Source of the DNA: an uncultured Bacteroidales bacterium | GTDB taxonomy: Bacteria; Bacteroidota; Bacteroidia; Bacteroidales; UBA4417 | Length of the DNA stretch: 32,427 nt | Direction of reading: 5' to 3' | Assembly: GCA_903946925.1 (NCBI GenBank) | Contig: CAJAXK010000313.1 | Coordinates: 1 to 32,427 of the forward strand | Shown: one piece after another, positions 1 to 16,151 of the stretch | How positions within the stretch are numbered: position 1 is the first letter of the stretch | How the letters are laid out: each line of letters begins with the position of its first letter | The notes under the pieces: model-generated | Database searches by the model: none | What the model was told of the DNA's origin: nothing | Seen by the model: the letters and a program-made list of their open reading frames with translations, nothing else | Position numbers and translations under genes: made by a program

Positions 1-47
1 CTAAATCCTAAAATCCTCTGCAATACCAATTTGATCGTAGTCTTCAT
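1..47 (-). CDS. 5' fragment of an unidentified protein, running off the window
   Basis: Only the first 15 codons are inside the window; they read MKTTIKLVLQRILGF and stay open to the edge. A perfect Bacteroidota -7 box (TACTTTTG, 74-67 on the minus strand) lies 19 nt before the ATG and supports both the gene and the start. The short basic-hydrophobic N-terminus recalls FkbM-type methyltransferases of this phylum, but 15 residues are too few to assign a family, so that is a guess. Confidence 0.45.
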   Translation of the reverse strand, partial: MKTTIKLVLQRILGF

Positions 48-66
48 TCTATAAACAATTAGCCGC

Positions 67-74
67 CAAAAGTA
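67..74 (-). promoter_or_regulatory. -7 promoter box of the gene at the left edge
   Basis: The minus strand reads TACTTTTG, an exact match to the Bacteroidota -7 consensus TAnnTTTG. It ends 19 nt before the ATG at 47. I see no convincing -33 TTTG at the usual distance. Confidence 0.5.
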
Positions 75-276
75 CGACTATTTGAGAAACCGCCTAACTA
101 TCTTGCATATTCGGAAATGGTATTTTTTGTTGGCTCTTAAATTGAATCGCGGTGTCAATTGGAAAAATCCACCACCCTAGCATTTTACCATACATATTTA
201 TATTTTACATATCCGCAAACCAATTACCTTTACAATGGCAATTATCAGGATTCCTATCCTAATAAAATCAAAAACA

Positions 277-3246: not shown

Positions 3247-3481
3247 TCGGGGATTTCAGATTACGATCGAAACATACATCTTCACTGCCTGCACCAAGTT
3301 GTGAAAGCACTGGAATTTTTGTCAGAATATGCTTATAATATACTGATTATTAACACGGAGGGTTGTTGTAACGCTTCGTGTTTTTGTTTTGTAGCAAATC
3401 ACATCCCCGCGTTTCAAGGATATTTACCCACATATTATAAATTCCTTTTGGGGCTTTTATCCTTAAAACACCACATTTTAT

Positions 3482-3489
3482 TACTTTTG
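3482..3489 (+). promoter_or_regulatory. -7 promoter box upstream of phosphofructokinase
   Basis: TACTTTTG matches TAnnTTTG exactly and ends 40 nt before the ATG at 3530. No good -33 TTTG lies at 19-21 nt; the T-rich stretch at 3455-3458 is the nearest candidate. The rest of the 283-bp gap 3247-3529 shows nothing else I can name. Confidence 0.5.
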
Positions 3490-3529
3490 CACAAAAGTTC
3501 AACTAAAATTTATCTAACTTAAAAAACGC

Positions 3530-4747
3530 ATGAAAGGATCAATCCTTATACTTGCCGGAGGTGGACCAGCCCCAGGAATCAATACAGTTATCAGTTCGGT
3601 TGCAAAAGTTTTCCTTCGCGATGGCTTCCGTGTAATTGGCCTTCACGATGGCTATAAAAGCCTGTTTGCCGAAAACCCCAGCACCATAGACCTGGATTTC
3701 GAAATGGCTGACCGTGTGTTCAGCATGGGCGGTTCCATGTTGCGCATGAGCCGTTACAAACCTGCTGACTTAGAGTTTAAAACTACTTTTTTTGTAAAAA
3801 ATAACGTAAAACTTCTTGTTACCATCGGTGGGGACGACACTGCATCTACAGCCAACAGGATTTCCAAATTCCTAGCTGAACGCAAATTCCCAATCCAGAA
3901 CATACACGTCCCAAAAACGATTGACAACGATCTTCCGTTGCCTGAAGGACAACCAACTTTTGGTTATCAGAGTGCCAAGCAGGAAGGCGTTCGCATCGGT
4001 CGCACAATTTACGAAGATGCACGCACTTCGGGAAACTGGTTTGTGGTTTCGGCCATGGGACGCGAAGCCGGCCATTTGGCTTTTGGTATCGGCGCAGCCT
4101 GCCACTACCCAATGATCATCATCCCCGAAATGTTCAACAAAACCAAAATTACGCTTGATAAAATTACCCGTCTTATCATTTCTTCAATCGTGAAGCGGAC
4201 TTTGCTTGGCATCCCTTATGGGGTGGCAATTGTTAGCGAAGGCGTTTTCCATTTTATGAGCGATGATGAAATTGAAGCATCCGGCATACAATTTACGTAT
4301 GACGAGCATGGCCACCCGGAATTGGGAACCGTTAGTAAAGCGCATATATACAATATGTTACTTCAAATCAGACTCAAACAACTTGGTCTGAATGTAAAAA
4401 GCCGTCCGGTGGAAATGGGATACGAATTGCGTTGTATTCAGCCAACCGCATTCGATTTGTTGTACTGCAGCCTGCTTGGAATTGGTGTGAAGAAAATATT
4501 CGACGATGGATTGACCGGCTGCATGGTTAGCTCGGACCCAACAGGTGATATTTTCCCACTCTTCCTGAAAGACCTCGAAGATGGCCACGGTAAAGTGCGT
4601 ACCCGTATGGTTACCATGGACAGCCAGAAATCGAGGATGGTGTTCTACGACAGTATCCAGTACCTGACAGCCAACGATATGGAAGAGGCAAAAAAATACC
4701 TTTCAAATCCCGAAGATTTTGATTTTATGAAGATTTTGGAATGGTAG
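3530..4747 (+). CDS. 6-phosphofructokinase, predicted pyrophosphate-dependent
   Basis: A 405-residue PFK-family enzyme that phosphorylates fructose 6-phosphate to the 1,6-bisphosphate in glycolysis. The N-terminal nucleotide/PPi loop GGGPAPGIN is at 10-18, GGDD at 100-103 and PKTIDND at 128-134. In this family ATP-dependent enzymes carry GGDGS and PGTIDND, while PPi-dependent enzymes carry a second Asp after GGD and a Lys before TIDND. Both diagnostic residues here (Asp103, Lys129) are of the PPi type, so reversible, PPi-linked activity is inferred. The start is the ATG directly after the promoter region. The gene appears monocistronic, with a MITE-containing gap downstream. Family certain; phosphoryl donor likely but predicted from two residues. 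Confidence 0.9.
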   Translation: MKGSILILAGGGPAPGINTVISSVAKVFLRDGFRVIGLHDGYKSLFAENPSTIDLDFEMADRVFSMGGSMLRMSRYKPADLEFKTTFFVKNNVKLLVTIGGDDTASTANRISKFLAERKFPIQNIHVPKTIDNDLPLPEGQPTFGYQSAKQEGVRIGRTIYEDARTSGNWFVVSAMGREAGHLAFGIGAACHYPMIIIPEMFNKTKITLDKITRLIISSIVKRTLLGIPYGVAIVSEGVFHFMSDDEIEASGIQFTYDEHGHPELGTVSKAHIYNMLLQIRLKQLGLNVKSRPVEMGYELRCIQPTAFDLLYCSLLGIGVKKIFDDGLTGCMVSSDPTGDIFPLFLKDLEDGHGKVRTRMVTMDSQKSRMVFYDSIQYLTANDMEEAKKYLSNPEDFDFMKILEW

Positions 4748-4842
4748 GTTTTTAACATTTTAACTCATTTTTAACTTCGGGAACTTGTTTTTGGGTGTCT
4801 GTTCAATTTTCTTAGTGGGCAGGCACTCTTTTTTTCTACTCC

Positions 4843-4850
4843 TATCTTTG
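4843..4850 (+). promoter_or_regulatory. -7-like box split by the MITE left end
   Basis: TATCTTTG fits TAnnTTTG, but its last base is the first base of the MITE inverted repeat. On the other side of the element ATCTTT recurs at 5019-5024. The uninterrupted site therefore probably read TATCTTTA about 18 nt before the methyltransferase ATG. The element may have displaced this promoter about 170 bp from its gene. Confidence 0.35.
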
Positions 4851-5018
4851 AGTCCACTCCGAAAACCTAAAAAAAAAACCACGGAGCGATGTGCTGAGCT
4901 TATCGAAGCAGCATAGAGGACACAGAGGTACACAGAGTATTGTTAATCTGCTATTTAAACTTTTTGAACTTACAGATTTAGTGCCTTAGTGGCAAATAAG
5001 ACTTTTCGGAGTGGACTC
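4850..5018. mobile_element. MITE-like element, copy 1 (169 bp)
   Basis: The ends are a perfect 16-bp inverted repeat: GAGTCCACTCCGAAAA at 4850-4865 and its complement at 5003-5018. They are flanked by the direct repeat ATCTTT (4844-4849 and 5019-5024), which fits a 6-bp target duplication. The interior has the ACCACGG / CACAGAGG-type sequence common in Bacteroidota genomes and TTTAGTGCCTTAGTGGC near the right end, with no coding capacity. Compared with copy 2 (17922-18121) it carries a local replacement holding GCTGAGCTTATCGAAG and lacks about 45 bp near the right end. It must be mobilised in trans, by a transposase not seen here. Confidence 0.8.
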
Positions 5019-5039
5019 ATCTTTAAAACTAATAATTCG

Positions 5040-6224
5040 ATGGATACCAGCTTAAAAACCGGTGAATTTTCGCTTTCGGTGCAACAGTGCCTTGCCGATA
5101 ATACTTTTATCAAACTTTCCCTTGGGAATTACAAAGGCAAGGAAGAAAACCTGAAAAATATTTACATCAAGCGCATCCTGATTAAAGGCGAGGAAAAGCT
5201 AAGTTTTACATTCAGGTACAAAACCCGTGATATTGTTAAAAACTATTCTGTTTCGGAGGGATTAAATTTAATCGGTACTTATTTGGATCGGCAATTTTAT
5301 GTTGCAAGCCTTTTTTCCACTGCTTTCGACCTCAGTTTTGAGAACTTGCACAATAAAAAGATTGTCCTTCGCAAAAGCCAAGCGAGCAACAGCAGTGTAC
5401 CATCGCTCGAACACGACAGGAGCAAAAACCGGTTGATTGCTGCAAATGAGAAACCCTATCTCACAGAACTTAAAATAACTGACCAAACTGGGAAAGTGCT
5501 TGCCAATTCGCAGGACAAGTACAAGCAAATAAACCATTACATTGAGATACTCAGCACATTGATACAGGAAATGCCTATTAGGGAAAACCTTAAAGTGGTG
5601 GACATGGGTTCAGGGAAAGGCTATCTTACTTTTGCATTATACGATTATCTTACCAATGTTTTGAAAATCCAGGCACAAATTACGGGAGTTGAATTCAGGC
5701 CAGAATTGGTGGATTTGTGCAACAAATTTGCCAGAAATTCAGGTTTTGGTCAATTGGATTTCAAACAAGGAACTATAGAAAATTACGATAGTTCGGGAAC
5801 CAACATCCTTATTGCGCTCCATGCCTGCGACACGGCAACCGATGATGCTATTTATCAAGGAATTAAGGCCAATGCCGATTTAATTGTTGTTGCTCCTTGC
5901 TGCCATAAACAGATACGGCGGCAATTGGAAGCACAAAAAACCAGCAACGAAATGGATTTTCTGACCAAATACGGAATTTTTCAGGAACGCCATGCCGAGA
6001 TGCTGACAGATGGGATACGAGCTTTGATACTCGAATATTTTGGGTACAAAACCAAAGTTTTTGAATTTATATCAGATGCCCATACGCCTAAAAATGTGAT
6101 GATTGTGGGAATTAAAAACCAAAAAGCAGAACAAAAAAACATTCAGGTTTTACAAAAGATAAAAAACGCAAAGGCCTATTTTGGCATTGAATATCATCAT
6201 TTGGAGAGGTTGATGGGGATTTGA
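5040..6224 (+). CDS. Class I SAM-dependent methyltransferase, Methyltransf_32 type
   Basis: A 394-residue protein. The reading frame is open upstream to a GTG inside the MITE, but the ATG at 5040 (MDTSLKTGEF) is the first codon outside the element and is preferred. The C-terminal half holds the SAM-binding motif VVDMGSGKGYLTFAL, then GVEFRPELVDLC, LHACDTATDDA and APCCHKQIRRQL. The D-GSGKGYL, LHACD and PCCHK set is the signature of Methyltransf_32 (METTL25/RRNAD1-related) proteins. The N-terminal ~170 residues have no recognised domain and may bind substrate. The substrate is unknown; an RNA or protein target would fit relatives but is not shown here. The upstream region is disrupted by the MITE, so expression may be altered. 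Confidence 0.85.
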   Translation: MDTSLKTGEFSLSVQQCLADNTFIKLSLGNYKGKEENLKNIYIKRILIKGEEKLSFTFRYKTRDIVKNYSVSEGLNLIGTYLDRQFYVASLFSTAFDLSFENLHNKKIVLRKSQASNSSVPSLEHDRSKNRLIAANEKPYLTELKITDQTGKVLANSQDKYKQINHYIEILSTLIQEMPIRENLKVVDMGSGKGYLTFALYDYLTNVLKIQAQITGVEFRPELVDLCNKFARNSGFGQLDFKQGTIENYDSSGTNILIALHACDTATDDAIYQGIKANADLIVVAPCCHKQIRRQLEAQKTSNEMDFLTKYGIFQERHAEMLTDGIRALILEYFGYKTKVFEFISDAHTPKNVMIVGIKNQKAEQKNIQVLQKIKNAKAYFGIEYHHLERLMGI

Positions 6225-6321
6225 AATTTAAGTTTTTATAATTTCAATTTATAGAAAAGCGGAGCTAAATCCAAACTTCAAATTGACATAGAGAAAAACG
6301 AGGAAACAAGTTCAAACGAAT

Positions 6322-7560
6322 ATGAAAAAGGAAGAAATTGAAAAACTTACACCAGAAATCAGAAAGAGCGAATCTTGGAGCGAGGCCGAAAGCGAATACC
6401 AGTTTTTGTTTGAAACAGAGATGATGCCCGATATTTTGCGTTTTGGTGCCAAACCACTATCGAACAAGCAATTTGTTGATAAACTTAAAAGCATAGTTAA
6501 AAATTATCCTTTCTATTATCCGGCGTATCTTGATATGGGCTGTAGGCTGCTCAAAATCAATATACAACAAGCTACGGAAGCTCTTGATATAGGTTACGAA
6601 ATCTGCATTAGGGTATCTGATTTCGAAACAATTGATAAGGATTACGATATTGTGTTCGAGAATTTAGAGAATCTTATTCATTCGGAGTTTGTTGTTCGTT
6701 ATGTACTAAAACTTATTGAAAAATTTCCTGACAAGGCAATATTTTACGATTCGGCCGCGTATGCGTTTGCCTCATTGGGCGAAAATGATCAAGCGGTTGC
6801 TTTCAGCAAAAAAGCAGTTGAACTATCCCCTAAAAATTCATATTTCCTTAACAATTTGGGGATGAATTATTTAGAACTAAAAATGTATGAAGAAGCAGAA
6901 AAGTGCTTCAATCTTTCGATAAAAGCAGATAAGAATCATGTTAATCCTGTTAACAACCTTGCAATTTGTAAAGAAATGAAAGCCATAGGATTAACACTCA
7001 AGGAATATTTCCTTTTACCCGTTGATATTGAAAAAATTAGGGAATTGGAAAAGAACAGTGATCCTGATATTTTAGTGGAATATATTGGTAATGTGAACCA
7101 ATTTAAAATTATTGGTCTAAAGAATTCTTTTTTGGAGAAATCACAAAATAAAATACATTCATTTGACAGACTCATTAAAACACTAAGAGGGTTTTTCCGT
7201 TTTATTCAATCCATTAGCGATGAGTATTTTATTTATGAACAGGTGTTTTATGTACACATAAATTTCGAATCAATAATGCACATGTTTATCATTAGGCATA
7301 GCGATGTGAACGAAGAGATTTTGAATGAAATTTACCAATCCATGTTCATGTTCTACGGTTACCTTTCCGAGAAAAAAATTATTAAGAAACAACAGTTTGA
7401 AGCATTTAAAGAAACAGCAGATTCTATTAAATCTGGACTTTTTGATAAAATGCACAAATACAATAAAGTGCGAAAAGGATTGGGGAACAATCGAAAGACA
7501 AAAGCGGAAATCTTGGAGGAAATTTTTGGTGATGATGGCGATAGGGATTACATTTTTTAG
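6322..7560 (+). CDS. TPR-repeat protein of unknown function
   Basis: A 412-residue, probably cytosolic protein without signal peptide or membrane segments. At least two clear tetratricopeptide repeats occupy about 135-215 (FYDSAAYAFASLGENDQAVA, then YFLNNLGMNYLELKMYEEAE followed by KCFNLSIKADKNHV). The N-terminus is charged and helical. The C-terminal half (about 260-390) is helical with no recognised family and ends in an acidic tail, GDDGDRDYIF. TPRs mediate protein-protein contacts, so a scaffold role is likely, but no partner is suggested by the neighbours (a methyltransferase 97 bp upstream, a convergent GtrA gene downstream). Confidence 0.8.
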   Translation: MKKEEIEKLTPEIRKSESWSEAESEYQFLFETEMMPDILRFGAKPLSNKQFVDKLKSIVKNYPFYYPAYLDMGCRLLKINIQQATEALDIGYEICIRVSDFETIDKDYDIVFENLENLIHSEFVVRYVLKLIEKFPDKAIFYDSAAYAFASLGENDQAVAFSKKAVELSPKNSYFLNNLGMNYLELKMYEEAEKCFNLSIKADKNHVNPVNNLAICKEMKAIGLTLKEYFLLPVDIEKIRELEKNSDPDILVEYIGNVNQFKIIGLKNSFLEKSQNKIHSFDRLIKTLRGFFRFIQSISDEYFIYEQVFYVHINFESIMHMFIIRHSDVNEEILNEIYQSMFMFYGYLSEKKIIKKQQFEAFKETADSIKSGLFDKMHKYNKVRKGLGNNRKTKAEILEEIFGDDGDRDYIF

Positions 7561-7669
7561 TAAATCTATATCAAAAAGACTCTTTGACTTAAAATGTAAT
7601 TGATAATCAGATAGTTTCAGCAATTTATTTTCATATGCAGTAAATTATACTGGTAATAAAATTACTTAT

Positions 7670-8065
7670 CTAAACAAAAGTGTACATAAGGTTGATAAAG
7701 AAATTCCATACCGTCACAATACCGATAGCAAACAATTTGGATAGGTAAAAATTATAGCTCCGTTTTGTAACCAAATACCAGATTACCATCGTATTCATTC
7801 CCAAGCCAATAACTGAAAAAAACAGGAACCTTGAATACTCAATTGCTAATTCGGGATTGTTGCTTTGGAATGTCCACCAACGGTTCAGGAAATAATTGCT
7901 GGTAGCTGCCAATGTAAAACCAATGCAATTGGCAACATATTTCTGTATCTGGAATTTTTCTTTGCTTAGCCAAGTAAAACCAAAATCAACAACCACTCCG
8001 GTAGCCCCAACAGCCCCAAATTTCATAAATTTTACCAGTACGTCCTGGGTTAAAAAATCCATCAT
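7670..8065 (-). CDS. GtrA-like family membrane protein
   Basis: About 131 residues with four membrane segments. The family pattern is clear: KFGAVGATGVVVDFGFTWLS in the first helix, YVANCIGFTLAATSNYFLNR and WWTF after the second, and two more helices ending INLMYTFV. GtrA-like proteins help move undecaprenyl-linked sugars or act with glycosyltransferases in cell-surface polysaccharide synthesis; no glycosyltransferase is adjacent. The frame is open to a TTG at 8074, but that codon lies inside the -7 box, so translation should begin at the ATG at 8065 or the ATG at 8062. Either would make the mRNA nearly leaderless. Confidence 0.88.
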   Translation of the reverse strand: MMDFLTQDVLVKFMKFGAVGATGVVVDFGFTWLSKEKFQIQKYVANCIGFTLAATSNYFLNRWWTFQSNNPELAIEYSRFLFFSVIGLGMNTMVIWYLVTKRSYNFYLSKLFAIGIVTVWNFFINLMYTFV

Positions 8066-8071
8066 ATCCGG

Positions 8072-8104
8072 CAAAGGTACAGAAAAACACTTTTACAGTC
8101 CAAA
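8072..8104 (-). promoter_or_regulatory. Bacteroidota promoter of the GtrA-like gene
   Basis: On the minus strand TTTG (8104-8101), a 21-nt spacer and TACCTTTG (8079-8072) make one of the best promoter matches in the window. The -7 box ends 6 nt before the ATG at 8065 (9 nt before the ATG at 8062), so the transcript should start at or next to the start codon. Confidence 0.6.
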
Positions 8105-8199
8105 TTTGAAAACCGACTGGCAAAAACCTTATTTGAATTATTAACTATAACACTTATTTTCAACAGTTTACAGCACATACTATTTATGCTGCCAAAAGG

Positions 8200-9984
8200 C
8201 TAAAACTGCACAATTACAAGCTGTTTTTTCTCATCCCTTATAATTTCGACAGTTGCAACCTGGCCAGGTTTCAATTTGCCAAGCCGTGCCATATAATCGT
8301 AAATATTGCTCACGGGCTGACCTTCGATGGATATTACCCTGTCGCCTTTAACAATCCCCGAACGTTCGGCTGGCCCACCTTTGCGCACGCCGTCAACCCT
8401 AAGCCCATTATTGTCATTGGAAACCATATCTGGAACAATCCCTAAAGTAACTTTCATGTTTCGGCCATAACGAGCAGCTTGTTTGGAACCAGCTTCGCGG
8501 AAAATCAACCTCGGACTGTTAGCCAGGATTTTGGATAAATCGTAAACCATTTCCAAAACAGCTACCTCGCCGGTATAATTTATTTTATCAACATCATCAG
8601 CAGGAGTGTGATATTCGTCGTGTGCCCCGGTGGTGAAATAGAACACAGGAATATTTTCGCTATAAAAAGATGCATGATCCGATGGACCATACCCATCAGT
8701 AGAATGAGTAGTCTTGAACGGACGGCCAGTTTCGAGGATTTTCAGCAACGAATCCGATTCTGCCGAAGTACCAGTACCTCCAACGCTTATGGAGTTTGTT
8801 GCGGGGTTGAGCCTTCCAATCATATCCATGTTAATCATGGCATTTACCTTTTTCAGGTCAATTGGTGGTTTGTTAACAAATTCCTTCGAACCCAATAGCC
8901 CCATTTCTTCGCCTGTAAAAGCTACCAATACAACACTTCGCTTTAATTGCGAGCGGTTTGCAGCCAATTTTTGAGCTATTTCAATAACTCCTGCCGTGCC
9001 TGAAGCATTGTCGTCGGCTCCGTTATGAACTGCCAATGTTTCGGGTGCGCGCGAACCGCTTCCTTCGCCACCCATTCCCAAATGGTCGAAGTGGGCACCA
9101 ATTACCACATATTCGTTTTTAAGTACTGGATCCGAGCCTTCAATTACAGCAGCTACATTCTGCGCTATCACCCTTGTTTTCACCACATCGGCAGTAGCTG
9201 TAACCGTAGGTTCCAGGTATAACGAAACAGGTTTGTGGTTATCCTTCATCTCCGTTTCGAGCGTGGCAATTGAGTAGTTCATGGAAGCAAGCAATTTATC
9301 GGCAAGTTCGCGGGTAATGCTAAAAACCGGAATCCCGGCATCGGATGGCGATTTGTCGTACTGCGTATGCATGAGCACATCCTTTTTTTCGATGTCGGAT
9401 GGAGTAACCAGCAACACGCCAATAGCCCCTTTATCTTTGGCTGTCAACACTTTACCGCGTTCCTGCCCATAAGCTATAAAAGCAGAGTTTTGTTTTTCCG
9501 GTTCAGGATCGCCCCGAAGTATAATGGCCCATTTGCCTTTTACATCAATATTTTTAAAGTCGTTCCATTTTAACGAATCCAAATCCAGATCGAAACCATA
9601 TCCGGCAAAAACCACAGGAGCCGCAACTTTCGCCGAAGCAGAAAAAGAGAGTGGGGTAAAATCAACATTTGGGGTTGCAGTATATCCGTCGAAAGAAATC
9701 GAATTATTTTCTCCCGGATTTACATCCGATACGATCTCGAATTTTTGAAACCCGTTATCGAAAAGTAATTTTAAACCAGCTTTACTAAAACAATCGCGGA
9801 TATAAGCCGAAGCAACCCCATCTTCCGGAGTGCCGGGTTTGCGCCCTTTCAGCGAATCGGATGCAAGAAAACCAATTTGCTTTTGCAAATCGGTTGTAGT
9901 TATTTCGGGGTTGTATTGGGCAAAAGTTGAAGAGGAAAAAATCAAAATTCCGGCAACAAAGAGAAGAATACTTTTATGTTTCAT
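8200..9984 (-). CDS. Secreted M28-family metallopeptidase with PA and PDZ domains
   Basis: A 594-residue exported zinc peptidase, probably an aminopeptidase. It has a signal peptide (MKHKSILLFVAGILIFSSS, cleaved after TFA), a protease-associated domain at about 95-235, and an M28 catalytic domain with the expected ligand motifs GAHFDH (His298), GADDNASG, FTGEEMGLLGS (catalytic and ligand Glu), INMDMIGR and YHTPADD. A C-terminal PDZ domain (about 515-594) contains GPAERSGIVKGDRVISIEG. M28 enzymes with this layout remove N-terminal residues from peptides in the periplasm or outside the cell. A TATGTTTG box precedes the gene. It is not part of the neighbouring haem operon, being separated by 87 bp and having its own promoter. 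Confidence 0.92.
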   Translation of the reverse strand: MKHKSILLFVAGILIFSSSTFAQYNPEITTTDLQKQIGFLASDSLKGRKPGTPEDGVASAYIRDCFSKAGLKLLFDNGFQKFEIVSDVNPGENNSISFDGYTATPNVDFTPLSFSASAKVAAPVVFAGYGFDLDLDSLKWNDFKNIDVKGKWAIILRGDPEPEKQNSAFIAYGQERGKVLTAKDKGAIGVLLVTPSDIEKKDVLMHTQYDKSPSDAGIPVFSITRELADKLLASMNYSIATLETEMKDNHKPVSLYLEPTVTATADVVKTRVIAQNVAAVIEGSDPVLKNEYVVIGAHFDHLGMGGEGSGSRAPETLAVHNGADDNASGTAGVIEIAQKLAANRSQLKRSVVLVAFTGEEMGLLGSKEFVNKPPIDLKKVNAMINMDMIGRLNPATNSISVGGTGTSAESDSLLKILETGRPFKTTHSTDGYGPSDHASFYSENIPVFYFTTGAHDEYHTPADDVDKINYTGEVAVLEMVYDLSKILANSPRLIFREAGSKQAARYGRNMKVTLGIVPDMVSNDNNGLRVDGVRKGGPAERSGIVKGDRVISIEGQPVSNIYDYMARLGKLKPGQVATVEIIRDEKKQLVIVQF

Positions 9985-10010
9985 GGTCGAAGACTTTTTT
10001 TAAGAAAAAA

Positions 10011-10018
10011 CAAACATA
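10011..10018 (-). promoter_or_regulatory. -7 promoter box of the M28 peptidase gene
   Basis: The minus strand reads TATGTTTG, an exact TAnnTTTG, ending 26 nt before the ATG at 9984. A -33 element is not evident. Confidence 0.5.
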
Positions 10019-10061
10019 GCAATTAAATTGTAATTGCCGTAATCCTGATTAAAAGTTGACT

Positions 10062-10089
10062 AAAAAAGGCATTAGAGTTTCTGAAACTC
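10062..10089 (-). terminator. Possible terminator at the end of the HmuY-like lipoprotein gene
   Basis: The minus strand holds GAGTTT-CAG-AAACTC (10089-10075), overlapping the last codons of the gene, followed 7 nt later by TTTTTT (10067-10062). The stem is only 6 bp and the T-run is a little distant, so this is tentative. Confidence 0.3.
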
Positions 10090-11088
10090 AAACGATGGAA
10101 AGCCTTTTTCCATTTTGTTGTTCACCAATTTGTAAAAGCCAACAAACCTTAATTTATACAAATAGCCTTTCGTATCGCGTATCACATAAATTAAATCCGA
10201 ATTAACCGTGTAGGTCCCAACAGCGAAGTCGTACATTTTCCAGTTATACCCAATACGATCGGCATTTTTACTAAAATTCATTGATTGCGCCGTTTCGTAA
10301 GTTACGCTATCGAAAGGGGAAAGAGAATCCACTGCAACTTCAACAAATCGGGGGTTTATTAAAACACCTGTCAATAGATATGGGTAAGGATCGCCTTCAT
10401 CAGTATAAAGGAGCGTTGTGTATTGGGTGAAAAGTAAATCCCAATTGGATTTATCAGGCTCTGAAACGATTTCCGTTGGATTGGAAATTGAAAAAAGCAC
10501 ATTGTTGACATTTTCCTGCTTTTTTACTGAATGTAACTTTGGGTTTTTCCCATCCATGGCTGCGGTGCGGAAATAGTAAACTCCATTTTTCAGGCTATCA
10601 ATCACCAATTGGCTGAAACCTCGTGGGTTTCCCCGCTCATCAATTCCCCTATCAATCAACAGCAATCGGTTGGTGCCAATGGTGTCGTTATCAGTATTGA
10701 TTTCGAACCATTTTCCGATAGCGAGTGAGTCAGCAGTACCATCTGATGGATTGAAAAGCCATATTGCCCCGGTAGTATCTACAGGAAGACCAAAAACCTG
10801 CCCTTCTAAATGGGCAGATTTCATAAAATTACTACTGTTCAGTATAACCCGCCAACCATAGGCAGAGCTTTCGAAACCCAAATCCCAAGTCGCTTTCAGG
10901 TTTGTACTCACGGCACTACTATCTAACAGGCTATAATAAACCTGATATTTGTAAGTATCGGTTAAAGAAACTGTGTCGGAAATATAATTTCCAGGCTTGT
11001 GTGGTGTAATCCTCTCATCTTCTTTGAAACAAGACGAAACCAACACTGAAATCAAAACAAGCAGGTATAATATCGGTTTACGGAACAT
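10072..11088 (-). CDS. HmuY-like haem-binding lipoprotein
   Basis: A 338-residue predicted outer-membrane lipoprotein with lipobox VSSC and acylated Cys20. HmuY-family features are the first WDLGF block (near 68), a second WDLLFTQY block in the C-terminal half, and a KLRFVGFY segment near the end. HmuY of Porphyromonas gingivalis binds haem and passes it to the TonB receptor HmuR. Here the ATG overlaps the receptor stop codon by one base (TGATG), so the two are co-transcribed and probably translationally coupled. The protein is paralogous to the T9SS-exported protein at 13576-14877. Ligand assignment rests on family and context; the haem-coordinating residues were not verified. Confidence 0.8.
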   Translation of the reverse strand: MFRKPILYLLVLISVLVSSCFKEDERITPHKPGNYISDTVSLTDTYKYQVYYSLLDSSAVSTNLKATWDLGFESSAYGWRVILNSSNFMKSAHLEGQVFGLPVDTTGAIWLFNPSDGTADSLAIGKWFEINTDNDTIGTNRLLLIDRGIDERGNPRGFSQLVIDSLKNGVYYFRTAAMDGKNPKLHSVKKQENVNNVLFSISNPTEIVSEPDKSNWDLLFTQYTTLLYTDEGDPYPYLLTGVLINPRFVEVAVDSLSPFDSVTYETAQSMNFSKNADRIGYNWKMYDFAVGTYTVNSDLIYVIRDTKGYLYKLRFVGFYKLVNNKMEKGFPSFEFQKL

Positions 11089-13316
11089 CAGGTTTTTTTG
11101 AAATTATAGGATAATTTTACGAATGCGGTACGACCCCAGGCTATAATAGTTGTCCCACTACTACTTGAATGTGCCCCTGAACTACCCATTTTACCTTGTA
11201 CATTGGTAACATCAAAAAGGTTTTTCCCACCACAGGAAACAGTAAGTATGTTGTGGAAAAAGCTTTTCATCAATGAGATATCCAAAGAAGGAAAACCATC
11301 AACATATTCATTATTGAAAGCACCATCTGGATTTAGGATTGGATATTTACCTGAATATTTGAAGTTAGTAATCAGGGATGTGGCAATTTTTTCAAAGTTA
11401 TAAGTAAGCATGAAATCAAAATCGGTACTGTAATGAAATATTTCGTTAACATTACTTTGGTCTTCTACTGGGTACTTTCTACCAATTAGTGAAATCCCTG
11501 CCCGCATTGTTAGTTTAGGATATAAATTAACGGTCGAATTTAATTGAACGCCTTGTGAAATAAACTTAACAATATTAGCATAAGAATAAGATATAGAATT
11601 TGAAGCAGAATCAAGGGGGACCAATTCTATCATATTATCTAGGTTGGTGTAAAACAAAGTTATTTCTGTATTCAGAAAATACGTTGGCATCTCACGGTTA
11701 TATGAAAAATTAAGGTTGGTGAGATAAGAGCTTTCTGCTTTTAATTCGGGATTACCTACCACGGCGTGGTTGCTATCAATAAATTCAAGATAAAGTTCTT
11801 TTATGGTAGGCGACCTAAATCCCCTTGCAAAGGAGGCCCGGAGCGAAGTGTTTTTTGATGGTGAATATTTGGCATTTAAGGAGTAAACCAGTGGGGCTTC
11901 ATATTTTGTGTTATATATAAATCTGGCTCCTGGTTGTAAAGTTATTTTTGAATTTAGATTGTACTTAATATTGATAAAACCAGCTAAGTCGCCAATTTGC
12001 TGCGAGTTGCCTTGTATCCGCTCACCTTCGGTATTGTCTAAATTACCCTCGAAACCAATCAAAGTGTTCAGCTTTTGTTCAAAATAGTACGAATCTAACA
12101 AGGTGCGCAAATAGAAACTTTGATAAATCGTGGTGTCGCCTTCGATGGGAGTTTTTTCTAAAATTGTAAGATCATTCTGATAAAGCTCATATTTTTTGTT
12201 ATGAGTAGAATAAGCCCCAACAAAACTCAGTTGCTGCTTAGGCGAGAAAATATAAGATGATTCTACCTTAGAAGTTTGCCTTATTGTATGGAAAGTTTTA
12301 TCCATAGCTGTTTCGTAATAAGGTTTCAACAAATTACCATAGCTTTGGATAATCTCATCAAAGAATTGCAATGACATTTTTAAACGCACTTTATTTGTGG
12401 AATACAAATAATAACCATTAGCATTGTACTGCAGTTTTGGGTTCCAGGTCATGGCTCTTGCTGTATCCGATTCTGATTCGGAATAACCATCAAAAAAGTT
12501 GCGTGAAAAATCAAGGGAATAGGTATGATTTTTATTGTGGGCTGAACCACCAGCATTAAAATCATAACGTCCAACACTTTCGTAATACGCATTTGCAAAA
12601 GCTGTTAACGAAGCATTCTTATTCTCTCTGGTAATAATATTTACAACCCCTCCACTAGCATTGCTACCATAAACAACAGACATGGGGCCTTCTATTATCT
12701 CAACATGATCAACATTGTATAGGTTTAATTGGTTGATGTCGATATTTCCATCCAAACGACCAATAACTGGAACACCATCAACAAGTATTTTAACATTTTC
12801 GCCTGACAGGCCCATAAAACTCAAATTCGCCCCCATAATTCCACCTTGTGATATCCGAACATGACTTTCCGTGCTCAACAAATCAGTCAAATTGGTAGCA
12901 GCTTTTCGTTCGATCTGCCTACTATTTATTACATTGACTTTGTAAATGGACTTATCCGCTTTTTCAGGCTTAAATTGGCCTGTTACCACAAATTCGCTCA
13001 TGTTCAACACGGCCGGAACTAGAGACAAAGTAGTAGAAACCCCTGGCTCAATGGTATCGAATAAAGTTTCGTAACCGACGTAAGTAATTGCTATTTTACT
13101 TGTCTCTTTTAACTCGTTTGGAACTTTGCCTTCCATATCGGTAACCGCTTGCTTGAGGCTTGTAGTTTTCAGTCCTTGAAAACAGACGGTTGCAAAAGGA
13201 ATGACTTCTTTCGATTTGGCATCAATAATTTTAATAGTGCCTTGCTGACCGAAGATCTCACCTACGGTCAGCATTAGCACTATCAACCCTATTAACCTGA
13301 TAAACAAAACTTTCAT
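11088..13316 (-). CDS. TonB-dependent outer-membrane receptor, HmuR-like
   Basis: A 742-residue beta-barrel receptor. It has a signal peptide (cleaved near GEIFGQ), a carboxypeptidase-regulatory-like domain at about 25-105, a plug domain at about 125-230 (VKILVDGVPVIGR, VEIIEGPMSVVYGSNASGGV) and a barrel to the end. FRSPTIKELY near 499, NH a few residues on and NPEL near 521 resemble the FRAP/NPEL region of haem receptors, which suggests haem as ligand. It is flanked by two HmuY-like genes and overlaps the downstream one by 1 nt. The gap upstream (13317-13575) is unusually structured. Haem uptake is an inference from motif and context; another iron chelate is possible. Confidence 0.9.
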   Translation of the reverse strand: MKVLFIRLIGLIVLMLTVGEIFGQQGTIKIIDAKSKEVIPFATVCFQGLKTTSLKQAVTDMEGKVPNELKETSKIAITYVGYETLFDTIEPGVSTTLSLVPAVLNMSEFVVTGQFKPEKADKSIYKVNVINSRQIERKAATNLTDLLSTESHVRISQGGIMGANLSFMGLSGENVKILVDGVPVIGRLDGNIDINQLNLYNVDHVEIIEGPMSVVYGSNASGGVVNIITRENKNASLTAFANAYYESVGRYDFNAGGSAHNKNHTYSLDFSRNFFDGYSESESDTARAMTWNPKLQYNANGYYLYSTNKVRLKMSLQFFDEIIQSYGNLLKPYYETAMDKTFHTIRQTSKVESSYIFSPKQQLSFVGAYSTHNKKYELYQNDLTILEKTPIEGDTTIYQSFYLRTLLDSYYFEQKLNTLIGFEGNLDNTEGERIQGNSQQIGDLAGFINIKYNLNSKITLQPGARFIYNTKYEAPLVYSLNAKYSPSKNTSLRASFARGFRSPTIKELYLEFIDSNHAVVGNPELKAESSYLTNLNFSYNREMPTYFLNTEITLFYTNLDNMIELVPLDSASNSISYSYANIVKFISQGVQLNSTVNLYPKLTMRAGISLIGRKYPVEDQSNVNEIFHYSTDFDFMLTYNFEKIATSLITNFKYSGKYPILNPDGAFNNEYVDGFPSLDISLMKSFFHNILTVSCGGKNLFDVTNVQGKMGSSGAHSSSSGTTIIAWGRTAFVKLSYNFKKT

Positions 13317-13575
13317 TCCAAATTATTATTTTTTTAGCAGAAATGAGATGTGTTTTTAGTTGTTACTGAAGTAAAGTGCCGGCCAAAGTAACCAGCTCTG
13401 GCCGGCGCCCTTACTTTCAAACCTAATTAACCCTATAAACAAAACATTTCATGCGTACTTATTTCGCTTTAATTGAGGTAGATTTTGCTTTTTAATGCCT
13501 GACCGTTAACCGGATATTTTATCCGGCCAACGGAATAGACATCAAACCCTATAAACATAAACAAAACCCCACATT
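13317..13575 (-). promoter_or_regulatory. Structured leader before the TonB receptor: repeat boxes and two hairpins
   Basis: The 259-bp gap holds two strong inverted repeats: CCGTT-AA-CCGGATA, loop TTT, TATCCGG-CC-AACGG (13503-13533), and TGCCGGCC, 15-nt loop, GGCCGGCG (13378-13407). A box of the type CCCTATAAACAAAAC occurs in three variants: 13417-13452, 13542-13579 (with an inserted repeat of AAACAT) and the receptor start itself (13283-13316). The copy at 13417-13452 resembles the receptor start over about 34 bp, including a decoy ATGAAA that stops after eight codons. The arrangement could be an attenuator, a partial terminator after the upstream gene, or the scar of a local duplication. 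Neither hairpin is followed by a T-run. Confidence 0.45.
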
Positions 13576-14877
13576 TTAATTATTTATCACTACCTTTTGT
13601 GATATTCTATTTGCACCGCTCTGTACAACAACTACATACATACCTGTGCGCAAAGCCGTAACTGGTATCCGGAGGGTTGTAAGCACTTCGGATTGAAGCT
13701 CATATTGTTGCGCAAATACAATCTTACCCGAAATATCCATTATGGAAACCATGGTATTTACCGATTTTCCAGGGTTAACAACAAGATTCATTACCTCACT
13801 TACCGGATTTGGGTAAACAGCCACATTAAAGCTTGATTTTTCAACCTCTGCAAAGCCTAAAGCTGAAATCATTTCTTTTTGAAAAACTATCCGGCCAGTT
13901 GATGTGCCAACAAATTCTTTAAAAACAAGTTTATGAATGTTACCACTTTTATCCTGAACAAAATAAACGGTTGAGTCCACTATATCATACGTATAACTGG
14001 CATTCAGTTTTTTCCATTCCCAACCAATTGGTGAACGGGTTGAATCCATGGCGGCCAGATCAAATGCTTTATAATCCAGTGAAACATGTTCAAATTTATC
14101 CACTTTTACATCGTAATTATTGAGTACACCAACAACCGGATACAAAACTCCATCAGGATATGTGTACATATATTTAGCAAACAACAAATCCCATTGTGAG
14201 GTAGCAACTGGCTCAAAATCAACAATCTGATTGTCAACCAAATTATATCCTACAAAGTTTTTTGTTGAATATGGGCTACAATCCAAACTGATTTTGTTAT
14301 CATTTGTGCCGTCCAAATTTGCGAAACGAAAGTCAATAACGTTCAAACTCGAATATTTACGCATGATCCAAATTTTGCGCAGGCTTCCATCACGAAGTTT
14401 TATGATAAACAAGGAATCGCCAACCACATCGTGCGAAGCTGTATTGTATTTGCCCCAACCGTAATCGGGATGGCCTTTCTGGTTTTGGCAAAAAGCACCT
14501 GTTTCCCAATCAGTGGTTGAATTCACCAATTTTTTCCATGAATAAAACCCGGCTGTATCTACTGTTGCCCAGCCACTTGTATCTGATTTTGGGTAAGCAT
14601 ACAATTCAACACCAGCAAGGCTGATTGCATTGTTGTTAGAAGCATCATTTGTAAGGATGCTAGCACTCATGCGCGATGCACGGAAAGCAATATCCCACTG
14701 TTTACGGTTAACAGCACCTTTGTTACCGGCAGACATGCTGTAATAAACCTCATTGTTATAACCGGCACCCATATAAATTGTGTCGGTAATAGGGCCAGAT
14801 TTTTGGCCCATTACAGGATATGAACCTGCAAAAGTGGTTGCTATTAATGCAACAAAAGTGAAGAGTTTGTTAATCAT
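13576..14877 (-). CDS. HmuY-like protein exported by the type IX secretion system
   Basis: A 433-residue protein with a signal peptide (MINKLFTFVALIATTFAGSY, cleaved near VMGQ) rather than a lipobox. The HmuY-like region shows WDIAFRASR near 62 and WDLLFAKYMY followed by YPVVGVLNNYDVKV, then IGWEWKK and HKLVFKEF, the same series as in the lipoprotein at 10072-11088. The last ~75 residues are a T9SS type A sorting domain (VAVYPNPVSEVMNL to SQKVVINN). The protein should therefore be secreted and either released or anchored on the surface. With the receptor and lipoprotein it would form a capture chain for haem or a similar ligand. The order and shared strand support one operon, although the 259-bp structured gap may adjust expression. 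Confidence 0.8.
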   Translation of the reverse strand: MINKLFTFVALIATTFAGSYPVMGQKSGPITDTIYMGAGYNNEVYYSMSAGNKGAVNRKQWDIAFRASRMSASILTNDASNNNAISLAGVELYAYPKSDTSGWATVDTAGFYSWKKLVNSTTDWETGAFCQNQKGHPDYGWGKYNTASHDVVGDSLFIIKLRDGSLRKIWIMRKYSSLNVIDFRFANLDGTNDNKISLDCSPYSTKNFVGYNLVDNQIVDFEPVATSQWDLLFAKYMYTYPDGVLYPVVGVLNNYDVKVDKFEHVSLDYKAFDLAAMDSTRSPIGWEWKKLNASYTYDIVDSTVYFVQDKSGNIHKLVFKEFVGTSTGRIVFQKEMISALGFAEVEKSSFNVAVYPNPVSEVMNLVVNPGKSVNTMVSIMDISGKIVFAQQYELQSEVLTTLRIPVTALRTGMYVVVVQSGANRISQKVVINN

Positions 14878-15024
14878 AAGGTAAAAAGTATGGAATTGTG
14901 TGTGAAATTTCCCAGTAATGGAACCATTCTGGCAATAAGGCTTTTGATGCCTTACTAAATGGATTATGCAGGCAACTTTATGCGCGGATGTGAACCGTAC
15001 AATTCCAAGCCTGAAAATCAGAAA

Positions 15025-15396
15025 TTAAGCGGTTGGTGGGCCTCGTAAGGAAAAGGCTTGAATGCCCTGAATGGAAACAGGGACATCTGGCAAATTGAAA
15101 TATGTAGAAATTATTTCTGCATGAAAAATATTGAATTCCTGAACATCAGGGGTTGAAAAATCAAAATGGTGTACACTCCCAAACTGGGCAAAACTTCCGT
15201 CATCCTTAACCGATGAGGATGAATCTTTGTCCTTGGCACGGGTTGAGGAACACGCAACAGGAATAAGTTGTTTGCCCCAAATATGATGCTGATGAAAATT
15301 AACAAGGCTTCCAAGATAAATCCACATCACACCAAAAGCCCATCCAATAAGGATGGCTTTGCGCAGTGCTGAGGTTGTGGAACGTAGGAAACCCAT
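15025..15396 (-). CDS. Small membrane protein ending in RGPP
   Basis: A 123-residue protein with one membrane segment (about 13-33: ILIGWAFGVMWIYLGSLVNF), a His-rich patch just after it (HQHHIW) and the C-terminus SLRGPPTA. Small Bacteroidota proteins with a signal-like helix, His/Cys-rich middle and a terminal RGPP-type motif often precede TonB receptor genes for metals. That is recalled from general experience, not verified. It lies 147 bp upstream of the T9SS HmuY-like gene on the same strand and is probably the first gene of the locus. A weak promoter (AACTTTG near 15417-15423, minus strand) lies just before it. Function unknown; metal sensing or handling is a guess. Confidence 0.6.
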   Translation of the reverse strand: MGFLRSTTSALRKAILIGWAFGVMWIYLGSLVNFHQHHIWGKQLIPVACSSTRAKDKDSSSSVKDDGSFAQFGSVHHFDFSTPDVQEFNIFHAEIISTYFNLPDVPVSIQGIQAFSLRGPPTA

Positions 15397-15586
15397 AATT
15401 TGCCTTTGAAATAGGGTGCAAAGTTGTATTTTTTTCGGGACATAAAAACTTTTTTATGACTTTTTTTTAATAATTAACGAAAATAATCAGAATAATGACA
15501 TATATCAATGCTTTTTGTGATTTGTACATGGTGTCAAATTGATTTTTATCCTAAAACCCCAAAATAATCCCTTTTTATAAAAAAAC

Positions 15587-15644: not shown

Positions 15645-16151
15645 CTAAATGCCTGCTTCAAGTTTTATTTGAACCACCCAATCTTTGATCCTCTGATCAG
15701 TAAACTCTTTTTGAGAATCGTCGTCGATGGCCAATCCAACAAAATTCCCTTCTTTCTCGGCTGTTGAGTAATAAAAGTTGTACCCACGGGTTGATGTAAA
15801 GCCAACCACGTTTTGCTTGTACGGCAAACGGCAAAATATTGTTCCCATACCATCAACAAAGCTTTCGGGATAAATTTTCTGATCGCCAAGACCAAACAGA
15901 GCAATTTTCTTTTTGCTCAAATCGGCTTCGATCAGAGTGTCGATAAACCTTTCCCAGTCCGAATGCATTTCGCCAATTCCCCAAGCGGCTGTTCCCAAAA
16001 CCAAAAAATCGTATTTTTCGACATCGTGCTTGGCAGCTCCACCAACATTGTGTACCGTTGCATCCACTCCAATAAGTTCCTGTATCCTGCGGGCCACTTT
16101 TGCAGTGGTTCCATTATCTTTACCGCCGAAAAAAATTCCAATCTGTGACAT
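15645..16151 (-). CDS. fldA: Flavodoxin
   Basis: A 168-residue FMN electron carrier, usually made in place of ferredoxin when iron is short. Flavodoxin features are the N-terminal beta strand IGIFFGG with the FMN phosphate loop, VLGTAAWGIGEMHSDWERFI (first aromatic FMN loop), KKIALFGLGDQ with YPESFVDG, and TRGYNFYYSTA in the long-chain insertion. The phosphate loop is atypical: it reads GGKDNGTT where relatives have GS-x-T-G-x-T, so it appears one residue longer and has lost the first Thr. The gene has its own -7 box 30 nt upstream and a strong terminator. It lies beside the haem-uptake locus and divergent from a two-component system. Confidence 0.9.
   Translation of the reverse strand: MSQIGIFFGGKDNGTTAKVARRIQELIGVDATVHNVGGAAKHDVEKYDFLVLGTAAWGIGEMHSDWERFIDTLIEADLSKKKIALFGLGDQKIYPESFVDGMGTIFCRLPYKQNVVGFTSTRGYNFYYSTAEKEGNFVGLAIDDDSQKEFTDQRIKDWVVQIKLEAGI

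Follow-up and report, generated by a model that had tools for sequence, protein, structure and literature searches.

The stretch of DNA analysed here, called the window, comprises 32,427 nucleotides (nt) from an uncultured Bacteroidales bacterium of the UBA4417 lineage (contig CAJAXK010000313.1 of assembly GCA_903946925.1). According to the list of open reading frames, its minus strand carries genes for a small RGPP-ended protein, a HmuY-like protein tailed for the type IX secretion system (T9SS), a TonB-dependent receptor and a HmuY-like lipoprotein. We call the two HmuY-like proteins T9H and LIP, respectively. By their sequences, they are paralogues placed on either side of one receptor, one T9SS-tailed and one with a lipobox. 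With moderate confidence, we read the set as a haem-acquisition module, in which two surface-held double-HmuY proteins flank a single TonB receptor and haem would be relayed in an inferred order.

T9H (433 residues; 13576..14877, minus strand, as for all dotted ranges below) starts with a signal peptide, recognized by eye, followed by two HmuY repeats and a T9SS type A sorting domain. After a gap of 259 nt comes the receptor (742 residues; 11088..13316), composed in Pfam terms of a CarbopepD-type N-terminal extension, a plug and a barrel. Its gene shares one nucleotide, at 11088, with that of LIP (338 residues; 10072..11088), in which an SSC lipobox continues into FKEDE and then into two HmuY repeats. 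These reading frames and the 1-nt overlap stand as the original prediction had placed them.

Both HmuY-like proteins exceed the Pfam cut-off of 27 bits for HmuY (PF14064), LIP with 45.8 bits and T9H with 29.4 bits across two stretches. Their AlphaFold models, for which orthologue alignments served as input, are of high confidence (predicted local distance difference test, pLDDT, of 89.5 for LIP and 86.3 for T9H) and have the all-β fold of HmuY. In VIA-align, the LIP model superposes on HmuY (3h8t) with Z 15.8 and a root-mean-square deviation (rmsd) of 2.5 over 137 residues, the first non-HmuY row having Z 5.3. The T9H model reaches Z 14.0 to PinO (6r2h) and Z 13.7 to HmuY 3h8t (rmsd 2.9, 131 residues). 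For LIP, Foldseek places HmuY structures at the top of its list (E 1.6e-4 to 1.4e-3); for T9H they are weaker (E ~2e-3 to 1e-2), amid other β-sandwich matches. A profile of 29 LIP sequences retrieves HmuY relatives in the PDB, the best at E 1e-7 and HmuY itself at 2e-5. The tail of T9H (residues 354-431, 13585..13818) exceeds the cut-offs of both Por_Secre_tail (PF18962, 49.6 bits) and TIGR04183 (44.2 bits, cut-off 23), and its model matches the T9SS C-terminal domain of mirolase with Z 11.6. Two paralogous HmuY-like proteins, one of them with a T9SS sorting domain, had been proposed from the letters alone; family and predicted fold now bear this out. A six-frame search of the genome for HmuY returned LIP alone and missed T9H, although the latter passes as a protein, so the genome may hold further HmuY copies.

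The arrangement recurs in relatives. A scan of named genomes was limited to the best 80 of 281 confirmed loci and to one peptide pattern, and its counts therefore describe the closer relatives of LIP; the named and unnamed sets overlap, and the conservation counts exclude no duplicates other than exactly identical proteins. By title, most of the named loci come from uncultured Bacteroidales and Bacteroidetes; the others include Lentimicrobiaceae, Prolixibacteraceae and a few more groups. The receptor lies less than 400 nt upstream of LIP in 77 of the 80 loci, and T9H less than 500 nt upstream of the receptor in 72 of these 77; the tail is present in 69, and the small RGPP gene precedes T9H in 60. 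Found at 72 of 80 named loci, the gene order goes beyond chance, and the co-occurrence of the three genes expected from the original prediction is indeed conserved. Eight named loci lack T9H: four end within less than 250 nt (L104, L114, L155 and L163), L157 is fragmented, L178 is displaced, and two are considered below.

Among 149 related genomes, a LIP search matched 35 at E 1e-5, with G008 and G067 reached through T9H only, and full-length T9H occurs in 33 (rows counted by hand). Both proteins are found in 31 genomes, T9H alone in 2, LIP alone in 2 and neither in 114 (Fisher p 3e-27, with no correction for relatedness). The T9H of G008 lies at a contig end, and the two LIP-only genomes are G050 and G142 (weak fragments). 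Across the phylum, the LIP profile matched LIP or T9H in 38 of 395 genomes, our own included. Of 20 regions from outside the order, 17 have the receptor–LIP pair, four of them with T9H; L194 and L196 have T9H only, and in L182 T9H adjoins LIP with no receptor call.

HmuY repeats and probable surface anchors

As judged by profile comparison, the HmuY repeat occurs twice in LIP and twice in T9H, a feature that is new here and had been overlooked in the original prediction. The comparison profile was built from 20 single-domain HmuY-like proteins of 196-232 residues, taken from a PF14064 search. In hhalign, it matches LIP at residues 1-168 (probability 97.6, E 3e-12) and 193-336 (96.9, E 2e-10), and T9H at residues 40-188 (98.1, E 9e-14) and 197-322 (95.9, E 5e-9). 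Repeat 1 of LIP, taken as residues ~31-168, corresponds to 10585..10998 and repeat 2 to 10081..10512; the repeats of T9H correspond to 14314..14760 and 13912..14289. Tested separately, the four repeats give probabilities of 96.2-97.5 (96.2 for LIP piece 30-185), and five control pieces, namely the T9SS tail, three receptor pieces and the small protein, give 0.2-0.7. With a lenient single-domain hidden Markov model (domain E 0.1), separate hits fall in both halves of 100 of 112 LIP and 74 of 97 T9H. These HmuY-like proteins of ~340 residues (plus tail) are tandem duplications, which annotation with a single 'HmuY domain' conceals.

The second repeats of LIP and T9H match each other with probability 99.8 (E 4e-29), and the first repeats with 96.5 (E 9e-10), across 51 columns only. 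Within T9H, repeat 1 matches repeat 2 with 92.5 (E 5e-7); within LIP, the value is only 37.6 (E 3e-4). The comparison suggests that doubling predates the split of LIP and T9H. In a tree of 86 sampled proteins, 47 LIP are fully apart from 39 T9H (support 0.867). The T9H of L058 and L060 (genomes G145 and G029, one family) shows the profile order 94-338, 26-99, T9SS tail, and is by this order a circular permutation of the doubled domain.

The structural match of LIP to HmuY spans residues 32-338 and the Pfam match 46-335, a pattern that would fit a single HmuY unit built from the beginning of repeat 1 together with the end of repeat 2. The middle of LIP was also considered as a novel insertion of ~120 residues (with very weak matches, Z ~3, to β-barrels, including RhuH); this idea was dropped because the profile comparison shows there the inner parts of two HmuY repeats.

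The mature LIP would start with C-F-K-E-D-E after its lipobox. The optimal surface-export signal of Capnocytophaga is C-X-K-(D/E)2-X (PMC5080379), and LIP has both the lipobox and C-X-K-(D/E)2 of this signal, as defined in Capnocytophaga. Among the 80 named LIP, 56 have its strict form C-x-[KR]-[DE]-[DE] and 74 fit the looser pattern C-x-[KEQ]-[KEDT]-D. The genome encodes SprA (TIGR04189, 2535.6 bits), the T9SS component that was searched for; with this component and its own sorting domain, T9H qualifies as a predicted T9SS type A substrate. Of 97 T9H, 91 have the tail without a lipobox, five a lipobox without the tail (L059, L062, L111, L116 and L177), one has both (L118, so classed by our own lipobox and tail rule) and none has neither. 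In L111 (~4494-5770), the T9SS tail persists as a separate frame past the stop of the lipobox-bearing T9H, seemingly a transitional form from one anchor to the other. This exchange of tail and lipobox points to a need for T9H to remain surface-bound instead of diffusing away. Since LIP carries the surface-export motif and five T9H swap the tail for a lipobox, both proteins are probably surface-tethered. The earlier division of the paralogues into a secreted or surface form and an outer-membrane form is therefore probably wrong as stated.

Receptor and candidate haem ligands

The plug and the barrel of the receptor exceed their Pfam cut-offs; the CarbopepD-type N-terminal extension scores 25.6 bits, below its cut-off of 32.2. 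The receptor carries FRSP (residues 500-503), NH (516-517) and NPEL (522-525), together at 11742..11819. Among 112 aligned receptors, R501 is conserved in 110, P503 in 112, His517 in 111, N522 in 112, L525 in 112 and His716, near the C-terminus (11169..11171), in 106. FRAP/NxxL with a His has been described for haem receptors and, together with an N-terminal extension, for BfpR of Flavobacterium psychrophilum, whose His lies in loop 7 (PMC9331221). The FRxP-His-NxxL arrangement fits this pattern, and the FRSP-His-NPEL motif is inferred to lie in loop 7. With His517 kept in all but one of the aligned sequences, the haem-receptor-like region first noted in this single receptor holds up. Sequence matches in the PDB are weaker and mainly in the plug region, and include PhuR and ShuA. 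The NCBIfam haem-receptor models score below cut-off (TIGR01785, 86.8 of 316.85 bits; TIGR01786, 94.6 of 323.75 bits).

In HmuY of Porphyromonas gingivalis, the known ligand His166 stands five residues after a Trp (Trp+5), in the same loop as the Trp+8 position; its ligands, and the 25 missing residues used for numbering, come from the published structure (PMC2671838), which also guided the placement of the column. In T9H, this Trp is kept in 98 of 98 aligned proteins, and at Trp+8 His149 (14431..14433, repeat 1) is found in 96 of 98. We propose the His149 column as the second axial haem ligand position. Counted by eye, the same column holds 11 His and 2 Met in the 20 single-domain relatives, and the Bacteroides vulgatus structure 3u22 has a Met there. 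In LIP, Met89 is present in 90 of 113 aligned proteins. Haem is the likeliest ligand of the module.

A proposed haem hand-over and its alternatives

Five of the 20 regions from outside the order (L189, L192, L193, L195 and L197) join the receptor–LIP pair to genes for HemS, FecCD, a binding protein and an ATP-binding cassette (ABC) ATPase, and three of them also carry ChaN. HemS and ChaN exceed Pfam cut-offs in L192 and L195, both loci tested, which carry a divergent T9H as well. Only one ATPase, that of L192, was compared with NCBIfam, and with 275.7 bits it exceeds the cut-off (261) of the haem ABC model NF010068; in the same locus, the binding protein is IsdE-like and its HemS protein HutX-like, both below the NCBIfam cut-off. 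ChaN is the third gene past LIP, on the opposite strand, in 5 of 14 same-genus regions (L033, L036, L038, L039 and L041); several of the other regions end before this position, and our own genome has ChaN on another contig. Because ALAD and ferrochelatase, the enzymes of two key steps in making haem, have no match in this genome, the bearer of the module may need outside haem. A zinc/copper module, prompted by the His-containing RGPP protein, was set aside: it finds no support in any Pfam family, and the HemS and haem-ABC genes of relatives favour haem.

In the haem relay that we favour, the receptor would import haem. The T9SS would carry T9H across the outer membrane, and T9H would be held at the cell surface, where its repeat 1 would pick up haem with His149 as axial ligand. 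T9H would pass the haem to LIP, a surface lipoprotein beside the receptor, or directly to the receptor, in which His517 would take it. Either kind of tether, T9SS or lipid, seems able to replace the other. Two more elements, the small RGPP protein and the site upstream of its gene, are likewise conserved.

Several observations weigh against this relay. Of the four repeats in the window, only repeat 1 of T9H has a His or Met at Trp+8; both repeats of LIP are without one. The column holds Asn or Gln in 7 of the 20 single-domain HmuY-like proteins, and no counterpart of the first ligand (HmuY His134) could be placed. HemS was not found by BLAST in the Bacteroidales loci examined, nor was CobN/HmuS (PF02514) in the whole genome, a search in which 5 of 14 controls were positive. 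ALAD occurs in 2 of 31 module genomes and in 25 of 118 others (p 0.07), so that the module and missing ALAD are only weakly, and not significantly, linked. A CxxCH lipoprotein encoded beside a second copy of the upstream site (L069, see below) has no Pfam match and lends no support to haem use by the bacterium itself. L129 and L136 have the small gene directly before the receptor, then LIP, and have likely lost T9H; G067 has T9H without an adjoining receptor. Deletion of a T9SS-tailed HmuY in Flavobacterium columnare left growth and virulence unchanged in the tests shown (PMC9618737). Finally, the best NCBIfam score of the receptor is with the B12 receptor model (114.2 of 599.7 bits, far below cut-off), and the FecCD permease of L192 is closest to BtuC (242.7 of 334 bits, below cut-off).

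The bare Trp+8 positions of LIP, next to the conserved His149 of T9H, would also suit a different role. It is possible, if short of probable, that LIP is a lid or docking partner of the receptor and no haem carrier, T9H alone binding haem; BtuG and SusD follow such a principle. In its favour, 72 of 77 named pairs have the LIP and receptor genes overlapping or at most 10 nt apart, though only 7 of 17 pairs from outside the order do. HfpY binds haem despite high divergence (PMC9331221), however, and ligands vary in the family; LIP may use an unrecognised ligand such as Met89.

Uptake of haem without any relay appears somewhat unlikely to us. T9H and LIP would then catch haem as alternatives, from different sources or under different conditions, and each would supply the same receptor on its own, in line with their separate clades, their different Trp+8 residues and the two HmuY loci of Prevotella intermedia (PMC10434189). 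LIP seems able to work alone, since 13 of 17 receptor–LIP pairs from outside the order have no T9H in the region. Within the order, however, co-presence is tight (31 of 35 carriers) and the T9H–receptor gap is at most 10 nt in 53 of 72 named loci, which favours joint action.

We also put forward, as an unlikely elaboration of the relay, a hand-off through four repeats. Two covalent double-HmuY proteins of opposite chemistry would sit on the outer surface around the single receptor, and haem would move from the ligand-bearing T9H repeat (His) to the ligand-poor LIP repeat (canonical position lost) and on to His517. The covalent doubling would stand in for the oligomerisation that haem drives in single-domain HmuY, and the anchor, T9SS tail or lipid, would be exchangeable.

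That the ligand is another porphyrin, a cobamide or an iron complex is improbable: the B12-type scores of the receptor and of the L192 permease, and the accessory binders of Bacteroides cobamide systems such as BtuH (PMC8941943), would fit it, but the HemS and haem-ABC context in relatives, FRxP-His-NxxL and the HmuY fold all argue for haem.

The module is composed of known parts: a T9SS-exported HmuY and a proposed haemophore hand-over already have precedents, and it is the arrangement of the parts that is new. HmuY/HmuR of P. gingivalis (PF14064, hmuYRSTUV) likewise places a HmuY-fold lipoprotein beside a TonB receptor. Unlike that system, the window has two paralogues with two HmuY repeats each, one of them T9SS-tailed, and a receptor with an N-terminal extension, in a genome without a CobN/HmuS match. 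In the HmuY structure, haem is inaccessible in the tetramer, and HmuR binds haem with lower affinity (PMC2671838). In Flavobacterium psychrophilum, HfpR and the HmuY-like haem binder HfpY are encoded in one operon, as here; the account, with which we compare by description, presents one HmuY-like protein and a gene between HfpR and HfpY (PMC9331221). C6N29_01035 of F. columnare combines a HmuY domain with Por_Secre_tail and is reported to be T9SS-secreted; one HmuY and no paired lipoprotein appear in the available text of that report, and the likeness is one of description, not sequence (PMC9618737).

In Riemerella anatipestifer, RhuH, RhuA and RhuR form a set of secreted haemophore, outer-membrane haem binder and TonB receptor (PMC11967795, PMC10986502), for which hand-over from the haemophore to the outer-membrane binder or the receptor has been proposed (PMC11967795). 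The fold of RhuH differs from HmuY according to its authors, and RhuH is not among the matches of the T9H profile to the PDB at E 1. BtuH and BtuB of Bacteroides, likened here by description, provide an extra binder serving TonB transport, with cobamide as ligand (PMC8941943). In open-licence literature, paired or double HmuY proteins are unnamed in the titles and abstract openings among the matches listed. Natural paralogue pairs with different ligand sets beside one receptor, as predicted here, are found in many uncultured Bacteroidales, and the order of hand-off and the role of tethering are therefore directly testable. This bears on the route that haem takes from a HmuY-type haemophore to its receptor.

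Small RGPP protein, control region and neighbouring genes

The small protein (123 residues; 15025..15396) ends in RGPPTA. It has one N-terminal membrane segment, seen by eye, an FH pair and a C-terminal R(G/A)PP, and no credible Pfam family. Across 22 aligned RGPP proteins, that of the window among them, F34, H35, R118, P120 and P121 never vary, and the RGPP end noted in the original prediction is accordingly real.

Upstream of its gene lies a near-palindromic site, TTGATATATGTCA (15496..15508), which appears to be of the Crp/Fnr type. The exact pattern TTGAYATATGTCA has two sites in the whole genome, one of them upstream of the small RGPP gene, and the reversed pattern has none; together, the two sites could possibly define a small regulon that includes the module. 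Of 12 same-genus upstream regions, 10 contain TTGATATATGTCAA with at most 2 mismatches, whereas L040 and L041 do not; L067 was dropped from this set, as it offers 2 nt only. We claim no promoter, because the element TAnnTTTG occurs downstream of the site in only 1 of 12 own-genus regions. The other TTGAYATATGTCA site (L069, G000:C125 ~4797) lies between a gene for a Crp-type regulator (PF13545 and PF00027; helix-turn-helix and cyclic-nucleotide-binding domains) and the divergent gene of the CxxCH lipoprotein, which is followed by that of a DUF5777 barrel.

The upstream neighbour in own-genus loci is the flavodoxin FldA (15645..16151; NF006739, 178.6 bits, cut-off 175); in L056 and L057, FldA is found downstream of LIP. 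In iron-starved P. gingivalis, hmu and a gene group containing fldA both rise, and hmu rises under iron starvation in all three Bacteroidetes tested (PMC10434189).

In L192 and L195, a T9SS-tailed protein is encoded between the receptor and the divergent T9H (11257-12048, 263 residues, and 8452-9270, 272 residues, respectively). That of L192 was considered as a RhuH relative and rejected, as it has no RhuH match. In three other loci, a membrane protein of 126 residues is encoded directly downstream of LIP (L058:1637-2017, L059:2037-2417 and L062:10557-10937); two of the three were scanned, and both match HsmA (TIGR03987) below cut-off. Upstream of T9H in L058, a series of genes leads into the module; their products resemble a multihaem cytochrome, DsrO, DsrP and thiosulfate reductase cytochrome b, each match falling short of its curated cut-off, and a CxxCH protein is encoded with them. 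By BLAST, L060 has the same gene clusters. Beyond LIP in the window lie an M28 peptidase with a PDZ domain (8200-9984) and a GtrA-family membrane protein (7670-8074); the M28 peptidase follows LIP in many own-genus loci as well.

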